Of a stretch of DNA of 41,830 nt, positions 23,864 to 32,257 are shown one piece after another. Numbering within the stretch: position 1 is the stretch's first letter; every line of letters starts with the position of its first letter. Source of the DNA: Pseudomonadota bacterium (GTDB taxonomy: Bacteria; Pseudomonadota; Alphaproteobacteria; Geminicoccales; Geminicoccaceae). The position numbers were made by a program, and so were the translations under genes. Where the stretch lies: assembly GCA_030549795.1 (NCBI GenBank), contig JAUQQO010000007.1, positions 1-41,830 on the forward strand, in the 5' to 3' direction. The notes under the pieces were generated by a model that made no database searches, was not told where the DNA came from, and saw only the letters and a program-made list of their open reading frames with translations.

Positions 23864-25609
23864 ATGGCGATCTCTGAGCACACGATCGCCCGCATCGACC
23901 GTTTGCGAGACACGGCGCCTTTGGGGCTGCGGGAGGGCGTTCTGCGCCTTTTGGCGGCGATTGTCTTGGCCTCGGCGATCGCTGCACCCGTCTTCGTGCT
24001 CTTCGCCTATGTGGGCCAGCCCGATGAGGGGCTCTGGGGCCACTTCGTGCGCACGGTCCTATGGGACCATGTGCGCGACACGGTACTGCTCGCCGCTGGT
24101 ACCGCTCTCGGCACGCTCGTGATCGGCGCCGGCACCGCCTGGCTCGTGACCCTTTACCGTTTCCCTGGGCGTCGGGTTCTGAACTGGGCTCTCGTCCTGC
24201 CGTTGGCCATGCCGACCTACGTCCTGGCCTACGCTTGGACCGATCTGTTGCAGGTCACTGGGCCGATTCCGACCACCCTCGCCTCCCTTCTGGGTCGCGA
24301 GCCGACGCAGCTGTGGTTGCCGGAAATGCGCTCGCTCGGCGGCGCCATTTTCGTGCTCACGCTCGCGCTCTACCCCTACGTCTATCTTTTGGCGCGCGCT
24401 GCGTTCCTCGAACAATCGCAGTGCGCGCTCGAGGTTAGTCGTACCTTGGGATGCAGTTCGGCGGAAGCCTTTCGTCGCGTCGGTTTACCGCTGGCGCGGC
24501 CGGCTATTGCCGCTGGGCTTGCATTTGTTGTCATGGAGACGTTGGCCGATTTCGGAGCGGTCAAACATTTCGAAGTACGCACGTTAACGACAGCCATTTA
24601 TCGCGCCTGGTACGCGCTCAACAGTCCGGTCGTCGCAGCCCAGCTTGCGCTGCTCTTAGTCGGAGCGGTTGCCTTGGTGCTGGCGCTCGAGCGCCGCGCG
24701 CGCCGTCGCGTGCGCTACGCTACCGCAACCGTGCACGTCTTCCGCAAGCGGCGTGAACCCTTGACGGGTATCAAGGGTTGGCTGGCGGCGCTTGCCTGCG
24801 CTCTGCCCGTCGGTGCCGGTTTCTTGCTGCCGGCGATCGGGTTGATCTTTATGGCCCTGGGCGAGCAGCATGAGCTATCCGCGGCGCGGCTCTTCGAGCT
24901 TACCGTGAACACGGTGCAGCTCGCTTTCTGGGCCAGTGTGCTGGTCGTCGGGACGGCGCTTTTGGGCGTGCACATCGTCAGCCGCGACCGTGCGGGGCTG
25001 GCGGCGCGGCTGGTTCGCCTCGCCACCCTCGGCTATGCGGTACCGGGTGCAGTGGTTGGGGTCGGGCTCCTTCTCTTCTTGGGCTGGCTCGACCGGAGCC
25101 TCGATGGATTGGCCCGAATCGTTACCGACCAGGGTCTGCCCTGGTTGCTCACCGGCTCGCTTACCGCTGTCCTCTACGGCTATCTCGTTCGTTTCTATGC
25201 GATCGCGCATAATCCCCTCGATGCTGGCATGGCCAAAGTGTCTCCGGCACTTGTCGATGTCGCTCGAGTCCTCGGCAGCCGCCCCAGCCGGATCCTTGGC
25301 CGAATTCACCTTCCACTCTTGCGCCCCAACCTGCTCACCGCCCTCCTCCTCGTCTTTGTCGAAACGATGAAGGAGCTGCCGGCCACCCTCATCTTACGGC
25401 CGTTCGATTTCGATACGCTTGCGATCGAAGCCTACCATCTTGCGAGCACGGAACGCCTTTACGCCGCTGGCTTGCCGTCGCTCGTGATCGTCGCCGCGGG
25501 ATTGGCCCCGGTCATCTTGCTCTGCCGCATGCTCGACCGCCGCCGGCCGAACATCGGCCGTGCGGCGGCCGAAGCCCTTACTTCCAGCCGCACTGATCCG
25601 CGAGCATGA
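23864..25609 (+). CDS. ferric iron ABC transporter permease (FbpB-like, two fused halves)
   Basis: This 581-residue permease has about 12 membrane spans made of two homologous permease halves, the layout of FbpB/SfuB iron(III) transporters. Each half has its EAA loop: LEVSRTLGCSSAEAFRRVGLPLARPAIAAG and LVDVARVLGSRPSRILGRIHLPLLRPNLL. It should move ferric iron delivered by the periplasmic protein encoded convergently next door. No ATPase gene lies beside it, so it must use one encoded elsewhere. The 3' end overlaps that of the binding-protein gene by 32 bases. Confidence 0.92.
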   Translation: MAISEHTIARIDRLRDTAPLGLREGVLRLLAAIVLASAIAAPVFVLFAYVGQPDEGLWGHFVRTVLWDHVRDTVLLAAGTALGTLVIGAGTAWLVTLYRFPGRRVLNWALVLPLAMPTYVLAYAWTDLLQVTGPIPTTLASLLGREPTQLWLPEMRSLGGAIFVLTLALYPYVYLLARAAFLEQSQCALEVSRTLGCSSAEAFRRVGLPLARPAIAAGLAFVVMETLADFGAVKHFEVRTLTTAIYRAWYALNSPVVAAQLALLLVGAVALVLALERRARRRVRYATATVHVFRKRREPLTGIKGWLAALACALPVGAGFLLPAIGLIFMALGEQHELSAARLFELTVNTVQLAFWASVLVVGTALLGVHIVSRDRAGLAARLVRLATLGYAVPGAVVGVGLLLFLGWLDRSLDGLARIVTDQGLPWLLTGSLTAVLYGYLVRFYAIAHNPLDAGMAKVSPALVDVARVLGSRPSRILGRIHLPLLRPNLLTALLLVFVETMKELPATLILRPFDFDTLAIEAYHLASTERLYAAGLPSLVIVAAGLAPVILLCRMLDRRRPNIGRAAAEALTSSRTDPRA

Positions 25610-26600
25610 GCGCTTCGCGGCTACGGCGCGCGTAGACCGCGGCGTTCATGGTATCCTGTTTGAAGCTACCCCAGCTCGCGACGACTTTGCCCGGCGGGAC
25701 TTGCGGATTTGCCGGATATTCGTAGTTGACATCGGCAAGATAGCGTTGCGCCTCGGGCGATATCAAATACTCGATCAATTTGACGGCGTTGGCGCGATTG
25801 GGCGCATGTGCGAGGAGCCCTACTCCACTCACGTTGACATGCGTGCCGCGGTCGTTCTGGTTCGGGAAGAAAATCCCCACTTTTTCTGCCACCGCACGGT
25901 CTTCGGGTTTGTCGGATCCGACGAGACGACCCAGATAGTAGCTATTGGAGATCGCGACATCGCCGACTCCCGCCGCCACGGCTCGGATCTGATCGGTATC
26001 GCCGCCCTGCGGCGGACGGGCGAGATTGGCCACGAACCCGCGGCACCAGGCGAGCGTCTTGTCGTATCCGTTGGCTTCGATCAGCGAGCCCAACAGGCCG
26101 AGATTATAGATGTTGGTGCTGGACCGGGTGAGAATCCTGCCCCTCCACTTCGGATCGGCGAGGTCTTCGTAGGTCGAAAGCTCCTCCGGCTTCACTCGCT
26201 CTTTGTTGTAAATGAGAACGCGGGCGCGCACGGAAAGCCCGACCCACCGGTCTCCCGGATCGCGTAGATGCGCAGGAATGGTGCGGTGGACGAGTTCGGA
26301 ACCGATCGGCTGAAAGAGCCCCTTTTCCACCGCCACGTGCAAACGCCCGGCATCGACAGTGATGAACAGATCAGCCGGCGATCGCTGCCCTTCGCTCGCC
26401 AGGCGCTGCAGCAAAGGGTCGTGGTCGCCCGAAACCACCCGGACCTCGATGCCGGTGGCGGCCTTAAAGCCGTCCCAGAGTTGTTGGTCGCTGCCATAGT
26501 GGCGGGCGTTGTAGACGTTGACCACCTGCTGGGCTTCAACGTTCGTCCACCAAAGCGTCGATGCCGCGCAGGCGCCTAAGAGAATACGACGCAGCAGCAT
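25578..26600 (-). CDS. ferric iron-binding periplasmic protein (FutA/IdiA-like)
   Basis: This 340-residue ABC binding protein of the iron(III) group has a Sec signal peptide (LLRRILLGACAASTLWW, cleavage near VEAQ). The mature start is VVNVYNARHYGSDQQLW with the iron-ligand region NARHY, and the later SNSYYLGRL supplies the conserved paired tyrosines. It captures ferric iron in the periplasm for the FbpB-like permease. The ATG is preceded by AAGGGGAAAAAGG. The gene is convergent with the permease and divergent from the thiocyanate hydrolase-like operon. Confidence 0.92.
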   Translation of the reverse strand: MLLRRILLGACAASTLWWTNVEAQQVVNVYNARHYGSDQQLWDGFKAATGIEVRVVSGDHDPLLQRLASEGQRSPADLFITVDAGRLHVAVEKGLFQPIGSELVHRTIPAHLRDPGDRWVGLSVRARVLIYNKERVKPEELSTYEDLADPKWRGRILTRSSTNIYNLGLLGSLIEANGYDKTLAWCRGFVANLARPPQGGDTDQIRAVAAGVGDVAISNSYYLGRLVGSDKPEDRAVAEKVGIFFPNQNDRGTHVNVSGVGLLAHAPNRANAVKLIEYLISPEAQRYLADVNYEYPANPQVPPGKVVASWGSFKQDTMNAAVYARRSREALMLADQCGWK

Positions 26601-26619
26601 GCCTTTTTCCCCTTGACAA

Positions 26620-26638
26620 CGATCGCTGGTCGCGATCG
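26620..26638. promoter_or_regulatory. dyad between iron-binding protein and scn-like genes
   Basis: A perfect inverted repeat, CGATCGC, five-base spacer, GCGATCG, lies 19 bases upstream of the iron-binding protein start. A TTGACA hexamer (26613-26618) directly abuts it on the plus strand, but a matching -10 element is not clear. It could be an operator serving one or both divergent units. CGATCG-containing words are common in this DNA, so chance is a real alternative. Confidence 0.35.
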
Positions 26639-26815
26639 ACGGTCGGCGCGTTTGGATAGATGATCGAGAGAAATCATGGAAGCTATTTCTGCTTTTTTTA
26701 GCGATCTTTTTACCCGTTCTTGTTTTGGATCGAGAGAGGCAGGCCCCCCAGTTGCTCTTGCGCCCGCAGCGCCTTCGCTGCAGCCTCGGGTGCGGCAGAA
26801 AGGAGCGAACAGGCC

Positions 26816-27151
26816 GTGCGACGTCACCACGACATGGGCGGGCTCGAGGCGGGGCCGATCGATCGCAGCGAACATGAGCTCGCCCCCTGGGAAAAGAAGG
26901 TCGATGCGATCTTGCGCCTGCTCATGGCCAAACAGATCATGACCCTTGATGAGCTTCGGTGCGGGATCGAAGATCTCGGACCCGGAGCTTATGACCAATT
27001 GTCGTATTTCGAGCGGTGGATCGCCTCGATCGCTAATATCCTCGTGGAGAAGGGTGTTCTAACCGTACAGGAACTCGGCGAGGCCATCGAAGCCGCGCGC
27101 GCGCGACGCGCCGCCGTGGCAGCCTGTACACCCGGGCAGTCACGATCATGA
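26816..27151 (+). CDS. scnB: thiocyanate hydrolase beta / nitrile hydratase beta N-terminal half
   Basis: This 111-residue protein matches the N-terminal helical half of nitrile hydratase beta: HHDMGGLEAGPIDRSEHELAPWEKKVDAILRLL, then YFERWIASIANILVEKGVLT. In thiocyanate hydrolase this half is a separate subunit (beta, ScnB), and the order scnB-scnA-scnC seen here is that of Thiobacillus thioparus. The start is set at GTG 26816, with AGGAG ten bases upstream; the ATG 18 bases later is an alternative. The stop overlaps the next start (ATGA). The subunit wraps the metal subunit and contributes to the active-site cavity. Confidence 0.82.
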   Translation: MRRHHDMGGLEAGPIDRSEHELAPWEKKVDAILRLLMAKQIMTLDELRCGIEDLGPGAYDQLSYFERWIASIANILVEKGVLTVQELGEAIEAARARRAAVAACTPGQSRS

Positions 27152-27444
27152 GCACGCGTTTTCAACCAGGCCAGCTGGTCCGGGTAAAGGCCCTCTATCC
27201 GCCCGGCCATTGCCGAACTCCGTTTTACACCCGCGGCAAATGCGGCCGTATCGTCGATCTCCTCGACGTCGAACCTGATCCGCAGGAGCGGGCTTACGGA
27301 CGCCCGGGGCTTCCGCCGATCCCGGTCTGGCGCGTCGTCTTCGCTCAGCGCGAGCTCTGGCCCGATTACCAGGGCCCCACCCACGACAGTCTCATCGTCG
27401 GCATCTTCGAGAATTGGCTCGAGCCTGTGGAGGAGGAGCCGTGA
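27148..27444 (+). CDS. scnA: thiocyanate hydrolase alpha / nitrile hydratase beta C-terminal half
   Basis: This 98-residue protein equals the SH3-like C-terminal barrel of nitrile hydratase beta: FQPGQLVRVKALYPPGHCRTPFYTRGKCGRIVDL, with the conserved GH-R-P-Y-RG-G motif whose arginines contact the modified cysteines of the metal centre, then PVWRVVFAQRELWP and a closing FENWLEP. It overlaps both neighbours (ATGA before, GTGA after). Whether the complex uses thiocyanate or nitriles cannot be decided from this subunit. Confidence 0.85.
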   Translation: MSTRFQPGQLVRVKALYPPGHCRTPFYTRGKCGRIVDLLDVEPDPQERAYGRPGLPPIPVWRVVFAQRELWPDYQGPTHDSLIVGIFENWLEPVEEEP

Positions 27445-28100
27445 GCGCCCACCGCGAACACGACCACGATCACGAGCCGGGTGCGGGACACCGCCATCCC
27501 TTCCAACCCGATCTCGAGGACGGCCCCTACACCTGGCATATGGCGCTTACCGACGCAGTCGCCGACCTTCTCCTCGCCAAGGGCATCGTCACACCCGACG
27601 AGCTCAGGCGCACCCTCGAGGAGATCGATTCTAAGAATCCGGCGCTCGGCGCGCGTCTGGTCGCCCGCGCCTGGGTCGACCCTGCCTTCAAGGCGCGTTT
27701 GCTCGCCGACGTCAATGCCGCCGCTGCTGAACTCGGCATCGACGCCGGTGGTATTCCCATCCGAGCCATCGAATGCCGTCCTGGCGAGCATCACGTCGTC
27801 GTCTGTACGCTTTGTTCTTGTTATCCGCGTTTGTTGTTGGGTCCGCCGCCTGATTGGTACAAAGCGCGTGCCTATCGTTCGCGGGTGGTGCGCGAACCGC
27901 GCGCCGTGCTCGCCGAATTCGGCCTCGTCCTGCCCGAGGATGTGCGCGTGATCGTGCACGACAGCACGGCCGAGCTGCGCTTTATGGTCCTGCCCATGCG
28001 TCCTGAGGGCACCGAGGGTTGGGACGAAGAGCGGCTGGCGGCGCTTGTCACGCGCGACTGTCTGATCGGCGTGGCGGTTCCACGTCCGCCATCGGCATGA
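27441..28100 (+). CDS. scnC: thiocyanate hydrolase gamma / nitrile hydratase alpha (cobalt type)
   Basis: This 219-residue metal subunit has the claw VCTLCSC (121-127), the cobalt-type sequence; two of these cysteines become sulfinic and sulfenic acids in active enzymes. Nitrile hydratases normally continue YPW; here it is YPR (Arg130). The equivalent position in Thiobacillus thioparus thiocyanate hydrolase is, from memory, also arginine (gamma Arg136), thought to suit the anionic substrate, which favours thiocyanate hydrolysis to carbonyl sulfide and ammonia. Other motifs: PPDWYKARAYRSRVVREPRAVLAEFGL and LPMRPEGTEGWDEERLAALVTRD. A His-rich N-terminus (six His within 18 residues) may handle metal. 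The start is GTG 27441, overlapping the previous stop with AGGAGGAG upstream. Confidence 0.87.
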   Translation: MSAHREHDHDHEPGAGHRHPFQPDLEDGPYTWHMALTDAVADLLLAKGIVTPDELRRTLEEIDSKNPALGARLVARAWVDPAFKARLLADVNAAAAELGIDAGGIPIRAIECRPGEHHVVVCTLCSCYPRLLLGPPPDWYKARAYRSRVVREPRAVLAEFGLVLPEDVRVIVHDSTAELRFMVLPMRPEGTEGWDEERLAALVTRDCLIGVAVPRPPSA

Positions 28101-28636
28101 GGATCAGTTCCGCCTTCGCCCTCGCTCTTTTGCTCGCCGCTCGGCTCGCCGCGGCCGATCAGCGCGATCCGCGCCTTGAACCTCTGTTTTCGCGCCTGGC
28201 CGTGGCCGATGCCGTCGAAGCGCGCCACCTCGAAGCCCAGATCCTGACGATTTGGAGCGCGGTGGATGATCCCGAAGCGCAAGCGCTCCTTGAGCGCGGA
28301 AGCGTGGCGATGGCCAATCGCGACTACGCGACGGCCAAGACCGCATTCGATGCGCTCACTTCTCGATTCCCCCATTTCGCCGAAGGATGGAACCGCCGCG
28401 CCACCTTATTGTGGATTTTGGGCGAGCACCTGGCTGCGGTCGCTGACCTCGAGCGAACGCTCGCTCTTGAACCGCGCCATTTTGGAGCACTCAGTACGCT
28501 CGGGCTCGCGCTCTTGCGCTTGGGTGCGCGCGAGGCCGCCCAACGCGCCTTCGAGGCCGCCTTGGCGATCCATCCCACCTTTGCGGTGGCGCGCTACCAC
28601 GTTGCGCTGCTGCGGCACCCGGAGGGCGAACTCTAA
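28097..28636 (+). CDS. exported TPR-repeat protein coupled to scnC
   Basis: This 179-residue protein has a signal peptide (MRISSAFALALLLAARLAAA) and at least three TPR-like helical repeats between about 70 and 170 (for example AMANRDYATAKTAFDALTSRFPHFAEGW and EHLAAVADLERTLALEPRHFGALSTLG). TPR domains bind proteins. The start ATG overlaps the scnC stop (ATGA), so it is made together with the hydrolase. Similar small periplasmic TPR proteins are common in alphaproteobacteria. It does not resemble the known nitrile hydratase or thiocyanate hydrolase activator proteins, and a periplasmic location would separate it from the enzyme. The role is unknown. Confidence 0.85.
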   Translation: MRISSAFALALLLAARLAAADQRDPRLEPLFSRLAVADAVEARHLEAQILTIWSAVDDPEAQALLERGSVAMANRDYATAKTAFDALTSRFPHFAEGWNRRATLLWILGEHLAAVADLERTLALEPRHFGALSTLGLALLRLGAREAAQRAFEAALAIHPTFAVARYHVALLRHPEGEL

Positions 28637-29850
28637 GAGCTGCGCGCATCCGCGATTGCGCGCCGGGGTGGGGTTGCCGTCGCGAAACGATCGGGAAACA
28701 GCTGGGCGAGCAAGCGGGCGTGGTCGTCGACGTCGACATAGACCCGGCGCGGGAGCCGGGCGATGTGGCGGACGGTCGCCTGCCAACGCTCCTCACTTAA
28801 GGACTCGAGCAGCCGTTCGAGGTTCTCGGCAACCGGCTCGGCGAGCGTCCAGCCCGCTCCGTGCTCTAAGACGAACGAACCGAGCGCCGTGCCCTCCCGC
28901 ACCAGCATCGGGCGGTGGAAGCAGAGCGCGTCGTACATGCGGTTGAACCACGATAAGCGCGCGTTCTCTTCCCACTGATAGTGTACGATCCAGACGAGAT
29001 CGGCACCCGCCAAGATCACGCCGAGCTCGTCCGGGTGCCGGTAGGGGCCACCGAAGGAGACATTGGGCAGATCGCGGATGCGCGCTTCGAGCTCCGCGGC
29101 GACGACGCCTTGTGGGATGCCCCGGATGATCACGGAGACGAGATCGGGGCGGCGAGCCGCAAGAGCAGTTATGATCTCGAGACTGCGCGCACACCGCAAG
29201 TAGCCGAGCCATGCGATCTTCCAAGGCGGAGCGGGTCTGCGCTCGACGTGTGCCGCACTTAGGCCTCGGCGCGCGATTTCCACATCGTCCTGCGGCAATT
29301 TGTTTTCGAGCAGAAACCAAGGACCGCGATAGCCCATTCGTGTGGCATAGAATTTCTCGACGTAGAAGGGCGAGCTCACCACAAGCAAAGCGCATCGTCG
29401 CAAGACGAACTGCTCGAGCGCGCGCACGATCCGCGAGAACAGACCCGAGCCGGTCTGCAGCGGATGTAAATCCAGGACCTCATAGACGAGCGGTGGTCGG
29501 CTGCGGGCGAGCCAGCCAGCAACGAGCACAACCAGCGCTTGCTCAAGATTGCGGGCGATCACGACATGCGAAGCCGCCAGGAAATCCCGCGCCCGCCACA
29601 GCCGCACCGCGCCGATCAGCATCGCGATCAGACGTCGGCCGAAGGCCTGATCCGCGGTGCGGCCCAGGCACAGAATGTCGGCCTCGTCGGGAAGTGGGGT
29701 TTCGCGGCGGCTGAAGCCGGCAAGGAGCACCCGGCAGCCGAGACGTTCGAGCTGCCGGCGTCGGTGGCGGGCTCGCCCATCGCCGAGCACATGCACCACA
29801 TAAGCGACAATAGGCGAGCCCGACCCGCCGCCGGCAGGCATTCGGTTCAC
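28633..29850 (-). CDS. glycosyltransferase family 4-like protein
   Basis: This roughly 405-residue protein looks like a GT-B glycosyltransferase. The N-terminal half has IVAYVVHVLGDGRARHR and VVIARNLEQALV with LVYEVLDLHPLQTG; the C-terminal half has KIAWLGYLRCARSLEIITALAARRPDLVSVIIRG and the acceptor/donor region NRMYDALCFHRPMLVREGTALGSFV. It probably transfers a sugar in surface polysaccharide synthesis. It begins with GTG overlapping the mmsA stop (GTGA), or with an ATG three codons later; no clear ribosome binding site is seen, so coupling to mmsA is likely. Functionally the two genes do not obviously belong together. Confidence 0.78.
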   Translation of the reverse strand: MNRMPAGGGSGSPIVAYVVHVLGDGRARHRRRQLERLGCRVLLAGFSRRETPLPDEADILCLGRTADQAFGRRLIAMLIGAVRLWRARDFLAASHVVIARNLEQALVVLVAGWLARSRPPLVYEVLDLHPLQTGSGLFSRIVRALEQFVLRRCALLVVSSPFYVEKFYATRMGYRGPWFLLENKLPQDDVEIARRGLSAAHVERRPAPPWKIAWLGYLRCARSLEIITALAARRPDLVSVIIRGIPQGVVAAELEARIRDLPNVSFGGPYRHPDELGVILAGADLVWIVHYQWEENARLSWFNRMYDALCFHRPMLVREGTALGSFVLEHGAGWTLAEPVAENLERLLESLSEERWQATVRHIARLPRRVYVDVDDHARLLAQLFPDRFATATPPRRAIADARSS

Positions 29851-31343
29851 CGCAACAACGGCATGGTGAACTCAGCGCCGGCACGGATGCCGGTCGGCCA
29901 ACGCACGGTCACCGCCTTGAGCTTGGTGTAGAAGCGGATGCCCTCGAGCCCGTGGGTATGGTGATCGCCGAACAGCGACCGCTTCCAGCCGCCGAAACTG
30001 TGGAAGGCGACAGGGACGGGGATTGGAACGTTGATCCCGACCATGCCGATGTTGACGGCATTGGTGAACGCGCGCGCGGCATCACCATCGCGGGTGAAGA
30101 TCGCTACCCCGTTGCCATATTCGTGGGCGTTGATCATCGCCACCGCCTCGTCGAAGGATTTCACCCGCACCGTGCTCAACACCGGGCCGAAAATCTCCTC
30201 TTTATAGATCCGCATATTCGGCGTCACGCGGTCGAAGAGACAACCGCCGATAAAGAACCCGTTCTCGTAGCCCTGCATCGTGAAGTCGCGCCCGTCGACG
30301 ACGAGCTCGGCGCCTTCGCGCACCCCGAGGTCGACGTAGGAGCGCACCCGCTCGAGATGCTCACGGGTCACAAGCGGGCCCATCTCCACCCCCGGTTCGG
30401 TGCCCGGCCCGATCTTGAGCTGGCGTACGCGCGGTGCCAGGCGCTCGATGAGCGCGTCGGCGACCTTCTCGCCGACCGGAACGGCGACCGAAATCGCCAT
30501 GCAGCGCTCGCCCGCTGATCCGTAGGCCGCCCCGACCAAGGCATCGACCGCCATGTCGAGATCGGCATCGGGCATGATGACCATGTGGTTCTTGGCACCG
30601 CCGAGCGCTTGCACGCGTTTGCCGTAGGACGTTCCGGTACGATAGATGTACTCCGCGGTGGCGGTCGAGCCGACGAACGAGATCGCCGCCACATCGGGAT
30701 GCGCCAAGAGCGCGTCGACTGTCTCCTTGCCGCCATTGACGAGGTTGACGAGGCCTTCGGGCACGCCCGCTTCGAGGAAAAGTTCCATGAGGATCATGGG
30801 CGCGCTCGGGTCTTTCTCAGACGGCTTCAAAACGAAGCCGTTACCGCAGGCGATCGCAAGCGGTGCCATCCACAAGGGGATCATGACCGGGAAATTGAAC
30901 GGCGTGATCCCTACGCACACCCCGAGGGGCTGACGAACTGAAAAGATATCGATGCCGGTTCCGACCTGCTGACTGATCTCACCCTTCAAGAGTTGCGGCA
31001 GGCCGCAAGCGAACTCGACCACCTCGAGACCGCGCTGGACTTCACCGCGCGCGTCCTCGAGCGTTTTGCCGTGCTCGGCGGTGATCGCCCGCGCGAGCCG
31101 CTCCGCATTGCGCTCAATTACCTCCTTGAGCTTGAACATGACGCGCATGCGGCGCAGCACGGTCTGTTCGGCCCACGCCGGCTGCGCCGCTTTGGCCGCC
31201 TGCACGGCGGCATCGACCTCGGCGGGGGTAGCGAAGGCGACCCGCCCGGTCTGTTCGCCGGTAGCGGGATCAAAGACGGGTCCGAAGCGATCCCCCGCAC
31301 CCGGTATCGCCTTGCCCCGAATGAAATGGCCGATCTCCTTCAT
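29847..31343 (-). CDS. mmsA: methylmalonate-semialdehyde dehydrogenase (CoA-acylating)
   Basis: This 498-residue aldehyde dehydrogenase of the MmsA group forms propionyl-CoA or acetyl-CoA from methylmalonate or malonate semialdehyde with NAD and CoA, in valine, inositol and beta-alanine breakdown. Seen are NAD-binding SFVGSTATAEYIYRTG, the catalytic cysteine in GSAGERCMAIS and, diagnostic for MmsA, the VGINVPIPVPVAFHSFGGWKRSLFGD stretch. The ATG at 31343 has GGAGGTGGAG directly upstream, preferred over 31364. The 3-hydroxyisobutyrate-dehydrogenase-family gene at 35457 might act just before it in valine catabolism. Confidence 0.95.
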   Translation of the reverse strand: MKEIGHFIRGKAIPGAGDRFGPVFDPATGEQTGRVAFATPAEVDAAVQAAKAAQPAWAEQTVLRRMRVMFKLKEVIERNAERLARAITAEHGKTLEDARGEVQRGLEVVEFACGLPQLLKGEISQQVGTGIDIFSVRQPLGVCVGITPFNFPVMIPLWMAPLAIACGNGFVLKPSEKDPSAPMILMELFLEAGVPEGLVNLVNGGKETVDALLAHPDVAAISFVGSTATAEYIYRTGTSYGKRVQALGGAKNHMVIMPDADLDMAVDALVGAAYGSAGERCMAISVAVPVGEKVADALIERLAPRVRQLKIGPGTEPGVEMGPLVTREHLERVRSYVDLGVREGAELVVDGRDFTMQGYENGFFIGGCLFDRVTPNMRIYKEEIFGPVLSTVRVKSFDEAVAMINAHEYGNGVAIFTRDGDAARAFTNAVNIGMVGINVPIPVPVAFHSFGGWKRSLFGDHHTHGLEGIRFYTKLKAVTVRWPTGIRAGAEFTMPLLR

Positions 31344-31421
31344 CGCTCCACCTCCGCAGCGCACCCGGAAAGCATCCGATAGGCCGCGACCGGCCGATCG
31401 TCCAGCCGTAGCATCGGTGCC

Positions 31422-31982
31422 TCAACGAACGCGCTTTTTGCCGTGGATCATGGCGGCGACGAGATTCTCCCCGCCGCGCCAAGAGGTGAGGAGAACACCG
31501 CCCACGTGGAACACGATGAGGAAGAGAAGAAAGCGAGCCGAAAAGGCGTGCAGGGATTCAACGATGGCCGACCCCCAGAACCAATCCGTCGTAAGGAGCC
31601 ATCCCGTAACCGAGGTGGTGGCAATCGTCGCTAGCAGGGCGAGGATCATCCAACCGCCCAAAGGGTTGTGGCCGAGATAATGGGGCGCATCGCCGCGCAA
31701 CCATGCGCGCGCATATCGAGTCGTCTCCTCCACCCCGCGTACGAAATCTTTAAAGCGGCTGTGCGGGGGGCCGATGAATCCCCACAGCACCCGCAAGACC
31801 ACGATGCCGAGGGCGAGATAGCCGGCCCGATCGTGGAGCGCAGGAGGCCCTTCGTGCGTGAGCCAAGCGGTGAGCGTGCTCGCCACGAGCGCCCAGTGGC
31901 CGAGGCGGACGAACGGATCCCATACCTTGACCCGCACGCCTGCGGTCGGCGCGTCGGCACCGTCGCCTGCGGCCCCGATCAT
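31422..31982 (-). CDS. cytochrome b561-type membrane protein
   Basis: This 186-residue membrane protein has four spans and the layout of bacterial b-type cytochromes of the Ni/Fe-hydrogenase cytochrome b / b561 group: VWDPFVRLGHWALVAS with the first heme histidine, then HDRAGYLALGIVVLRVLWGFIG, and SLHAFSARFLLFLIVFHVGGVLL with two more. It likely moves electrons across the membrane. The start ATG overlaps the PepSY gene stop (ATGA). I start here and not further upstream because the upstream part of the frame is the PepSY gene. Confidence 0.9.
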   Translation of the reverse strand: MIGAAGDGADAPTAGVRVKVWDPFVRLGHWALVASTLTAWLTHEGPPALHDRAGYLALGIVVLRVLWGFIGPPHSRFKDFVRGVEETTRYARAWLRGDAPHYLGHNPLGGWMILALLATIATTSVTGWLLTTDWFWGSAIVESLHAFSARFLLFLIVFHVGGVLLTSWRGGENLVAAMIHGKKRVR

Positions 31983-32257
31983 CGCGTGAAACTCCGCAGA
32001 TGCTCGAGGCTCTCGGGATGGAAGTAGGCCTCCACCCGCCGGCCTTGGTCGTCGATGGCGTAGACTTCGTAGCATCCTCCATCGACTTTGATCCGCCGGA
32101 CCTGCCAGCCCTTGGCCTCGAGCCGTTGCTTGAGCTCGCTTTCCGGACGCCAGTTCTGCTCCGGCCCGGAGTTGCAGGTCATGAGCCCGGTCGCCCCCGG
32201 CTCGTGAGCGAAGGCCGCGAGGAGAGCAGCCGCCAATCCGAGTGCTCGCGTGCGCAT
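31979..32257 (-). CDS. PepSY domain-containing exported protein
   Basis: This 92-residue protein has an N-terminal signal (RALGLAAALLAAFAHEPGA) and one PepSY-like domain: LKQRLEAKGWQVRRIKVDGGCYEVYAIDDQGRRVEAYFHPESLE. Such small PepSY proteins are routinely encoded with a b561-type cytochrome, as here (4-base overlap), and may regulate it or bind a ligand in the periplasm. It has two cysteines, in MTCNSG and GGCYEV. The ATG at 32257 directly follows GGGAGACGGAGG. Confidence 0.87.
   Translation of the reverse strand: MRTRALGLAAALLAAFAHEPGATGLMTCNSGPEQNWRPESELKQRLEAKGWQVRRIKVDGGCYEVYAIDDQGRRVEAYFHPESLEHLRSFTR

Follow-up and report, generated by a model that had tools for sequence, protein, structure and literature searches.

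A likely three-subunit cobalt nitrile hydratase operon with a split beta chain and no activator-like gene in a genome of the Geminicoccaceae

Four overlapping frames at positions 26816-28636 of the forward strand of the window, the 41,830-nt stretch of DNA analyzed here, encode the N-terminal half of a nitrile hydratase beta chain (bN), its C-terminal half (bC), an alpha/gamma catalytic subunit and a TPR-repeat protein, in this order. It is likely that this operon codes for a cobalt nitrile hydratase of the AnhD-AnhE-AnhA type, made of three subunits and independent of an activator. An earlier note had read it as thiocyanate hydrolase-like; a thiocyanate hydrolase (SCNase) it probably is not, though it shares a part of the SCNase pocket. 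The split-beta arrangement is widespread and already described, and its representative in the window, though well conserved, is an ordinary relative of known three-subunit cobalt enzymes of this kind; the remaining interest lies in its mixed pocket and natural substrate.

The bN gene (26816..27151, forward strand) encodes a separate protein of 111 aa, which is AnhD/ScnB-like (NHase_beta_N, PF21006, 80.0 bits). Its start codon is the GTG at 26816, with an AGGAG sequence ten bases upstream. It is followed by bC (27148..27444, forward strand), which overlaps bN by ATGA and encodes an AnhE/ScnA-like protein of 98 aa (NHase_beta_C, PF02211, 60.9 bits), and by the gene of the catalytic subunit (27441..28100, forward strand), which has a GTG start and a product of 219 aa (NHase_alpha, PF02979, 250.4 bits). 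In this subunit the metal claw CTLCSC, followed by YPR instead of YPW as noted before, was read in the sequence at 27804..27830 (forward strand), Arg130 being encoded at 27828-27830. The TPR-repeat protein (28097..28636, forward strand; PF07719 and other TPR matches) has a signal-peptide-like start and is translationally coupled. Frames and Pfam matches agree with the earlier note on the division of the beta chain into two genes and on their order in front of the alpha/gamma gene, and the overlaps it had named were all found, ATGA at 27148, GTGA at 27441 and ATGA at 28097. Since all 6 genomes of the genus have a four-base overlap at each of the three junctions, and the set of three genes is found repeatedly in the family, the layout is not due to chance. 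Rfam gave just two sub-threshold, chance-like matches over 24000-32000, and no promoter- or terminator-like site was found in 26400-28900 (0.3 and 1.9 expected by chance).

A three-subunit nitrile hydratase has been described for Streptomyces canus CGMCC 13662, with the gene order anhD-anhE-anhA and the natural form AnhD2E2A2. Its substrates for hydration include acetamiprid, thiacloprid, and BN; the available part of the paper reports that an activator gene is lacking and describes AnhD as a metal and subunit-swapping chaperone (PMC7329996). By the published description, not by sequence, the window operon resembles it in gene order, in the number of subunits, in lacking an activator gene and in the metal, which is predicted to be cobalt here. 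It differs in that the S. canus enzyme is actinobacterial and that the same part of the paper mentions no TPR gene (PMC7329996). The published primer for S. canus anhD had no match in either of the two Streptomyces loci of our sample. The S. canus enzyme is cited in the available portions of PMC11573777 and PMC13243292, the former of which describes for the flonicamid degrader Microvirga flocculans a three-subunit enzyme with alpha encoded between two beta genes. A plasmid set of Microvirga terrae, in which two beta genes likewise flank that of alpha, reads YPR. A further likeness is to the toyocamycin nitrile hydratase of Streptomyces rimosus, whose name is presumably ToyJKL. By description it matches the window enzyme in having three subunits (ToyJ being alpha) of similar sizes, 21.2, 10, and 11.4 kDa in the accessible text (PMC8574189), and its alpha subunit is active alone according to work cited in the portion available of PMC7329996. 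On the model of such published relatives, from which metal, chaperone role and reaction are predicted, the CTLCSC claw of the alpha/gamma chain would hold non-corrin Co(III), bN and bC would together form the beta chain that closes the active site, and a small nitrile would be hydrated to its amide.

The two beta genes and the YPR had been taken as pointers to SCNase. The SCNase of Thiobacillus thioparus (2dd4) is indeed alike in its NHase-family domains, in CTLCSCYPR and in a beta chain made as two polypeptides, and its gene order is, as we assume, scnB-scnA-scnC. The order printed in a review, in the text available, is alpha-beta-gamma-activator (PMC7193024). Across 140 non-redundant rows drawn from 172 loci, collected with search patterns that excluded the residue after YP, this residue is arginine in 100 of 110 split-beta rows from several phyla (otherwise Lys 4, Trp 3, Ile 2, Gly 1), so that a split beta chain and YPR mark a large group and not SCNase. 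The 24 fused-beta rows have Trp 18, Phe 2, His 2, and Arg 2, the latter both being SCNases, and the six incomplete rows have Arg 5 and Trp 1. The sample leans to split sets because its largest scan, from which 80 of the 172 loci stem, was a genome scan with a split-type query (at least 592 stretches, 591 confirmed, best 80 kept). Among these best 80 of 591, bN, bC, and gamma lie in separate frames with bN first in 73, the order bC-gamma-bN is present in 2, and 5 are incomplete. The arrangement is widespread, since the record names of the scan cover Alpha-, Beta-, and Gammaproteobacteria, Rubrobacter, Streptomyces, Chloroflexi, Rokubacteria, and Binatota, with many metagenome bins, and the plasmid collection adds Planktothrix. 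Three loci (L002, L040, L150) have bN and bC in different frames yet read YPW and may be real splits, frameshifts or errors.

As further SCNase references two plasmids annotated with scnC were used, those found among 60 of 178 matching plasmid records that were spread down the ranking. They belong to Roseomonas marmotae (L087:5101-6750), whose gamma matches 2dd4_C with 358 bits, and to Azospirillum ramasamyi (L088:4985-6627). Unlike 2dd4 and the window, these two alphaproteobacterial SCNases have one fused beta gene, and a second bN-like gene lies alongside. Transporter genes are located near both, CbtA/CbtB in the former and HupE/UreJ in the latter. For genome annotation this is a warning that split beta genes together with YPR should not be read as thiocyanate hydrolase.

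Activators of Co-type nitrile hydratases are bN-like. The only NHase_beta_N match at E 0.01 in the genome of the window (G000) is the bN of the operon, and the earlier observation that no known activator gene is present thus extends genome-wide for the bN-like type, at a threshold that a much more divergent activator would escape. Exactly one NHase_beta_N match was found in 22 of 22 family genomes in which this operon is the only NHase_alpha locus (G011 with its broken gene included), and 2 to 4 matches occur in G001, G005, G028, and G030, which have enzymes of the two-gene type. A single bN alone is not decisive, because the two-gene genome G029 also shows one, on a 4.4-kb contig. Of the 110 split rows, 2 had a second bN nearby (L145 and the YPW-reading L040), vs 13 of the 24 fused rows, a count that covers the SCNases; among rows with a flank of at least 3 kb it was 0 of 58 split vs 2 of 2 fused. 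Two-gene Co-type nitrile hydratases (beta, alpha, activator), which have homologous domains and a metal claw, differ from the window by a fused beta chain and by YPW, which gives way in a minority to YPF or YPH; in 11 of their 22 rows, most of which have only ~1.5 kb of flank, an additional bN of the activator-like kind lies alongside. A global screen of nitrile hydratases has been published (PMC2603476, available in part). Five cobW-family matches occur elsewhere in the genome of the window, and this family is also present in 13 of 14 control genomes. Given the S. canus parallel and the single bN in 22 of 22 genomes, the missing activator is no anomaly. The bN of the window is most likely a cobalt chaperone as well, by analogy to AnhD; it would form one half of the beta chain and assist in cobalt insertion and subunit swapping, so that a separate activator would not be needed.

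The family sample comprises 31 genomes, identical to the 31 of its order. A match to NHase_alpha was found in 27 of them and none in 4. The window type of bN, bC, and gamma is carried by 22 of the 31 (in G016 bN is cut by a contig end), so that an enzyme apparently free of an activator is conserved in the majority of the genomes of this alphaproteobacterial family. G001 contains nothing but a divergent split set and one locus of the two-gene type, and in G028-G030 all loci are of the two-gene type, two of which are cut by contig ends. In G011 (L027) the coding sequence of gamma breaks into two frames, which may be due to a sequencing error or indicate a pseudogene. A literature search found no paper on a Geminicoccaceae nitrile hydratase.

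In 16 regions from 16 family genomes and the window, bN and gamma occur together in 17 of 17 and bC is clustered with them in 13 of 17; no further neighbor is constant, and neither an amidase nor a cobalt transporter is constantly linked to the operon in these 17 regions. An FmdA-type amidase and the two importer types sought, CbtA and NicO, had no match in the genome of the window. The genes downstream of related operons vary by lineage and resemble, by eye, a drug/metabolite exporter, a lipid A acyltransferase, an acyl-CoA dehydrogenase, HU, and DsbA. Upstream of the window operon a divergently oriented gene (25578-26600) seems by eye to encode an iron-uptake-type binding protein, with a relative in 5 of the 17 regions, the window included.

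Arginines at gamma 136 and beta 90 reportedly control the selectivity of SCNase. Arg130 after the window claw corresponds to gamma Arg136 of SCNase (Arg136 of 2dd4_C), a position at which classical nitrile hydratases have tryptophan. In the deposited SCNase chain 3vyg_C this place is Trp, which fits a mutant made for testing position 136. In bN, Leu47-Arg48-Cys49 (26954..26962, forward strand) aligns with the second place, Leu47 standing opposite SCNase beta Arg90 and Arg48 opposite beta Arg91; the placement of beta 90 comes from a sequence alignment with a gap nearby and not from a structure. The three SCNases 2dd4_B, L087, and L088 have Arg at beta 90 vs Leu in the window. Among 100 split YPR rows the residue is Leu in 76, Lys in 7, Asn in 6, Met in 3, His in 2, and Phe in 2, with Arg, Val, Thr, and Ser once each in the remaining rows; the beta 91 place is Arg in every row where it is readable. 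The aligned residues of the window pocket would thus form a Leu/Arg mixture that fits neither the nitrile hydratase nor the SCNase class. The two places, gamma 136 and beta 90, could be used for directly testing substrate choice in the superfamily. In the gamma tree one split set with YPR and Arg at beta 90 (L115:2168-2767) stands apart from the SCNases; by these residues it is a candidate for convergent thiocyanate activity.

In a different reading, another small substrate would be held by the arginine, such as a carboxylate nitrile (beta-cyanoalanine, cyanoacetate), cyanide or an isonitrile. A mixed Leu/Arg pocket outside both classes would agree with such a substrate, retention of the operon in most of the family beside no constant neighbor suits a stand-alone step, and on a plasmid of Planktothrix agardhii (L089:2469-5654) a related three-gene set immediately follows a gene for asparagine synthase. 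Against it stand the varying neighbors between lineages, and the candidate substrates are named by deduction; we consider this reading rather unlikely. A broader proposal, tentative and less likely than not, is that the split-beta YPR enzymes, those of this family included, form a third functional class next to nitrile hydratases and SCNases, in which a single anchoring Arg is combined with a greasy residue at beta 90 and the natural substrate is charged or very small. This class might be ancestral both to the fused-beta nitrile hydratases, by a change of Arg to Trp and an activator split off from bN, and to the SCNases, by the gain of the second Arg.

That the enzyme is a thiocyanate hydrolase in function, with Arg130 binding the anion and carbonyl sulfide and ammonia being made, is improbable. 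It would be suggested by the Arg at the gamma Arg136 place and the three-polypeptide architecture, by the deposited chain 3vyg with that residue changed to Trp, and by SCNase homologues in Alphaproteobacteria, for which trees of similarity-collected SCNase and nitrile hydratase homologues report an enrichment in the available text of PMC10098168. The Leu at the place of beta Arg90 speaks against it, as Arg is present in all three SCNases examined, and so does the lack of a second bN, which was found beside both plasmid SCNase genes.

The curated models give the same direction. On the SCNase gamma model TIGR03887 (cut-off 291.45 bits) the window gamma scores 211.7 bits, 80 under the cut-off, whereas the annotated plasmid SCNases, as positive controls, reach 359.2 (L087) and 356.8 bits (L088). 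Its score on the nitrile hydratase alpha model TIGR01323 (cut-off 249.85 bits) is higher, 238.6 bits, and also below the cut-off, as are three further family proteins with 239.9, 243.0, and 219 bits; two other split YPR enzymes exceed it, from Streptomyces (267.5) and Microvirga terrae (255.7). In 398 sampled genomes of the phylum TIGR03887 had a match in 58 and was above its cut-off in none. Among solved structures, cobalt nitrile hydratases are the top matches of the window gamma (2dpp 200.3 bits, duplicated 4ob1 207.8). The SCNase structure scores 177.8 bits, above several other solved nitrile hydratases, a point in favor of SCNase function. The top matches of bC and bN are nitrile hydratase beta chains with 49.2 and 56.2 bits vs 42.8 and 36.5 bits for SCNase, which for both halves still scores above several other nitrile hydratases.

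A gamma tree was calculated from 140 locus rows and 3 references, leaving out core-identical rows, rows whose gamma match was not strong, and L026, L027, L030, L032, L083, and L086. For a concatenated tree, 63 rows were chosen once the gamma tree was available; those of the two-gene type are uncharacterized loci, and L094-L096, L099-L101, and 9 of the family's 22 sets are absent. These L094-L096 and L099-L101 loci, from close named relatives, intermingle in the gamma tree with rows of the family. Separate clades are formed in the concatenated tree by the two-gene nitrile hydratase loci (100/100), the SCNases (100/100) and the family of the window (100/96). The SCNases are joined (99/93) by a group that has Lys at beta 90 and consists of two Streptomyces bN-bC-gamma and five alphaproteobacterial bC-gamma-bN sets. 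With a quick tree a joint clade of family and SCNases was rejected (p 0.0017), and a joint clade of family and two-gene loci was not rejected at 0.05 (p 0.079). In the gamma tree the solved nitrile hydratases 2dpp and 4ob1 group with the two-gene loci. A firm clustering of the window gamma with two-gene nitrile hydratases was not seen; a clustering with nitrile hydratases had been named in the earlier note as an argument against its own reading. The deep branches are weak, with bootstrap values of 40 to 72 in places. With the shortfall on the SCNase model, the Leu at beta 90 and the rejected joint clade, the SCNase assignment is not supported; what stands of it is the likeness in the split beta genes and in the arginine at the gamma 136 place, which are not marks of SCNase.

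The members of the Lys group (L028, L090, L091, L092, L161, L164, L167) are the nearest SCNase relatives in the concatenated tree, and three annotated ones are located near genes for CbtA/CbtB, a HoxN-type transporter, an aquaporin or a sulfite oxidase. A divergent split YPR set of the family genome G001 (L029:1507-2046) has a very long branch, lies weakly beside the SCNases in the gamma tree and scores 172.5 bits on the SCNase model.

The TPR gene is read as a passenger of one genus and not as a part of the enzyme; it would ride on the operon transcript there. The earlier note had described an exported, coupled TPR protein. The coupling stands by the ATGA overlap, while export is suggested by the signal-peptide-like N-terminus, judged by eye. 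Nitrile hydratase-type enzymes are cytoplasmic. That the TPR protein is a maturation factor replacing the activator, as its four-base overlap with the gamma gene in all six genus genomes might suggest, is very improbable, since the protein looks exported, its homologues in 13 genomes of other genera lie apart from the operon, 10 family genomes (one with a broken gamma gene) have the operon without a homologue at E 1e-6, and two have a homologue without any NHase_alpha match (G015 and the 70% complete G025). It is thus no general substitute for an activator. In total, TPR homologues were found at E 1e-6 in 19 of the 31 family genomes and adjoin the operon in the six of the genus; in G003 the homologue is located on the same contig as the operon, at a distance of ~10 kb.
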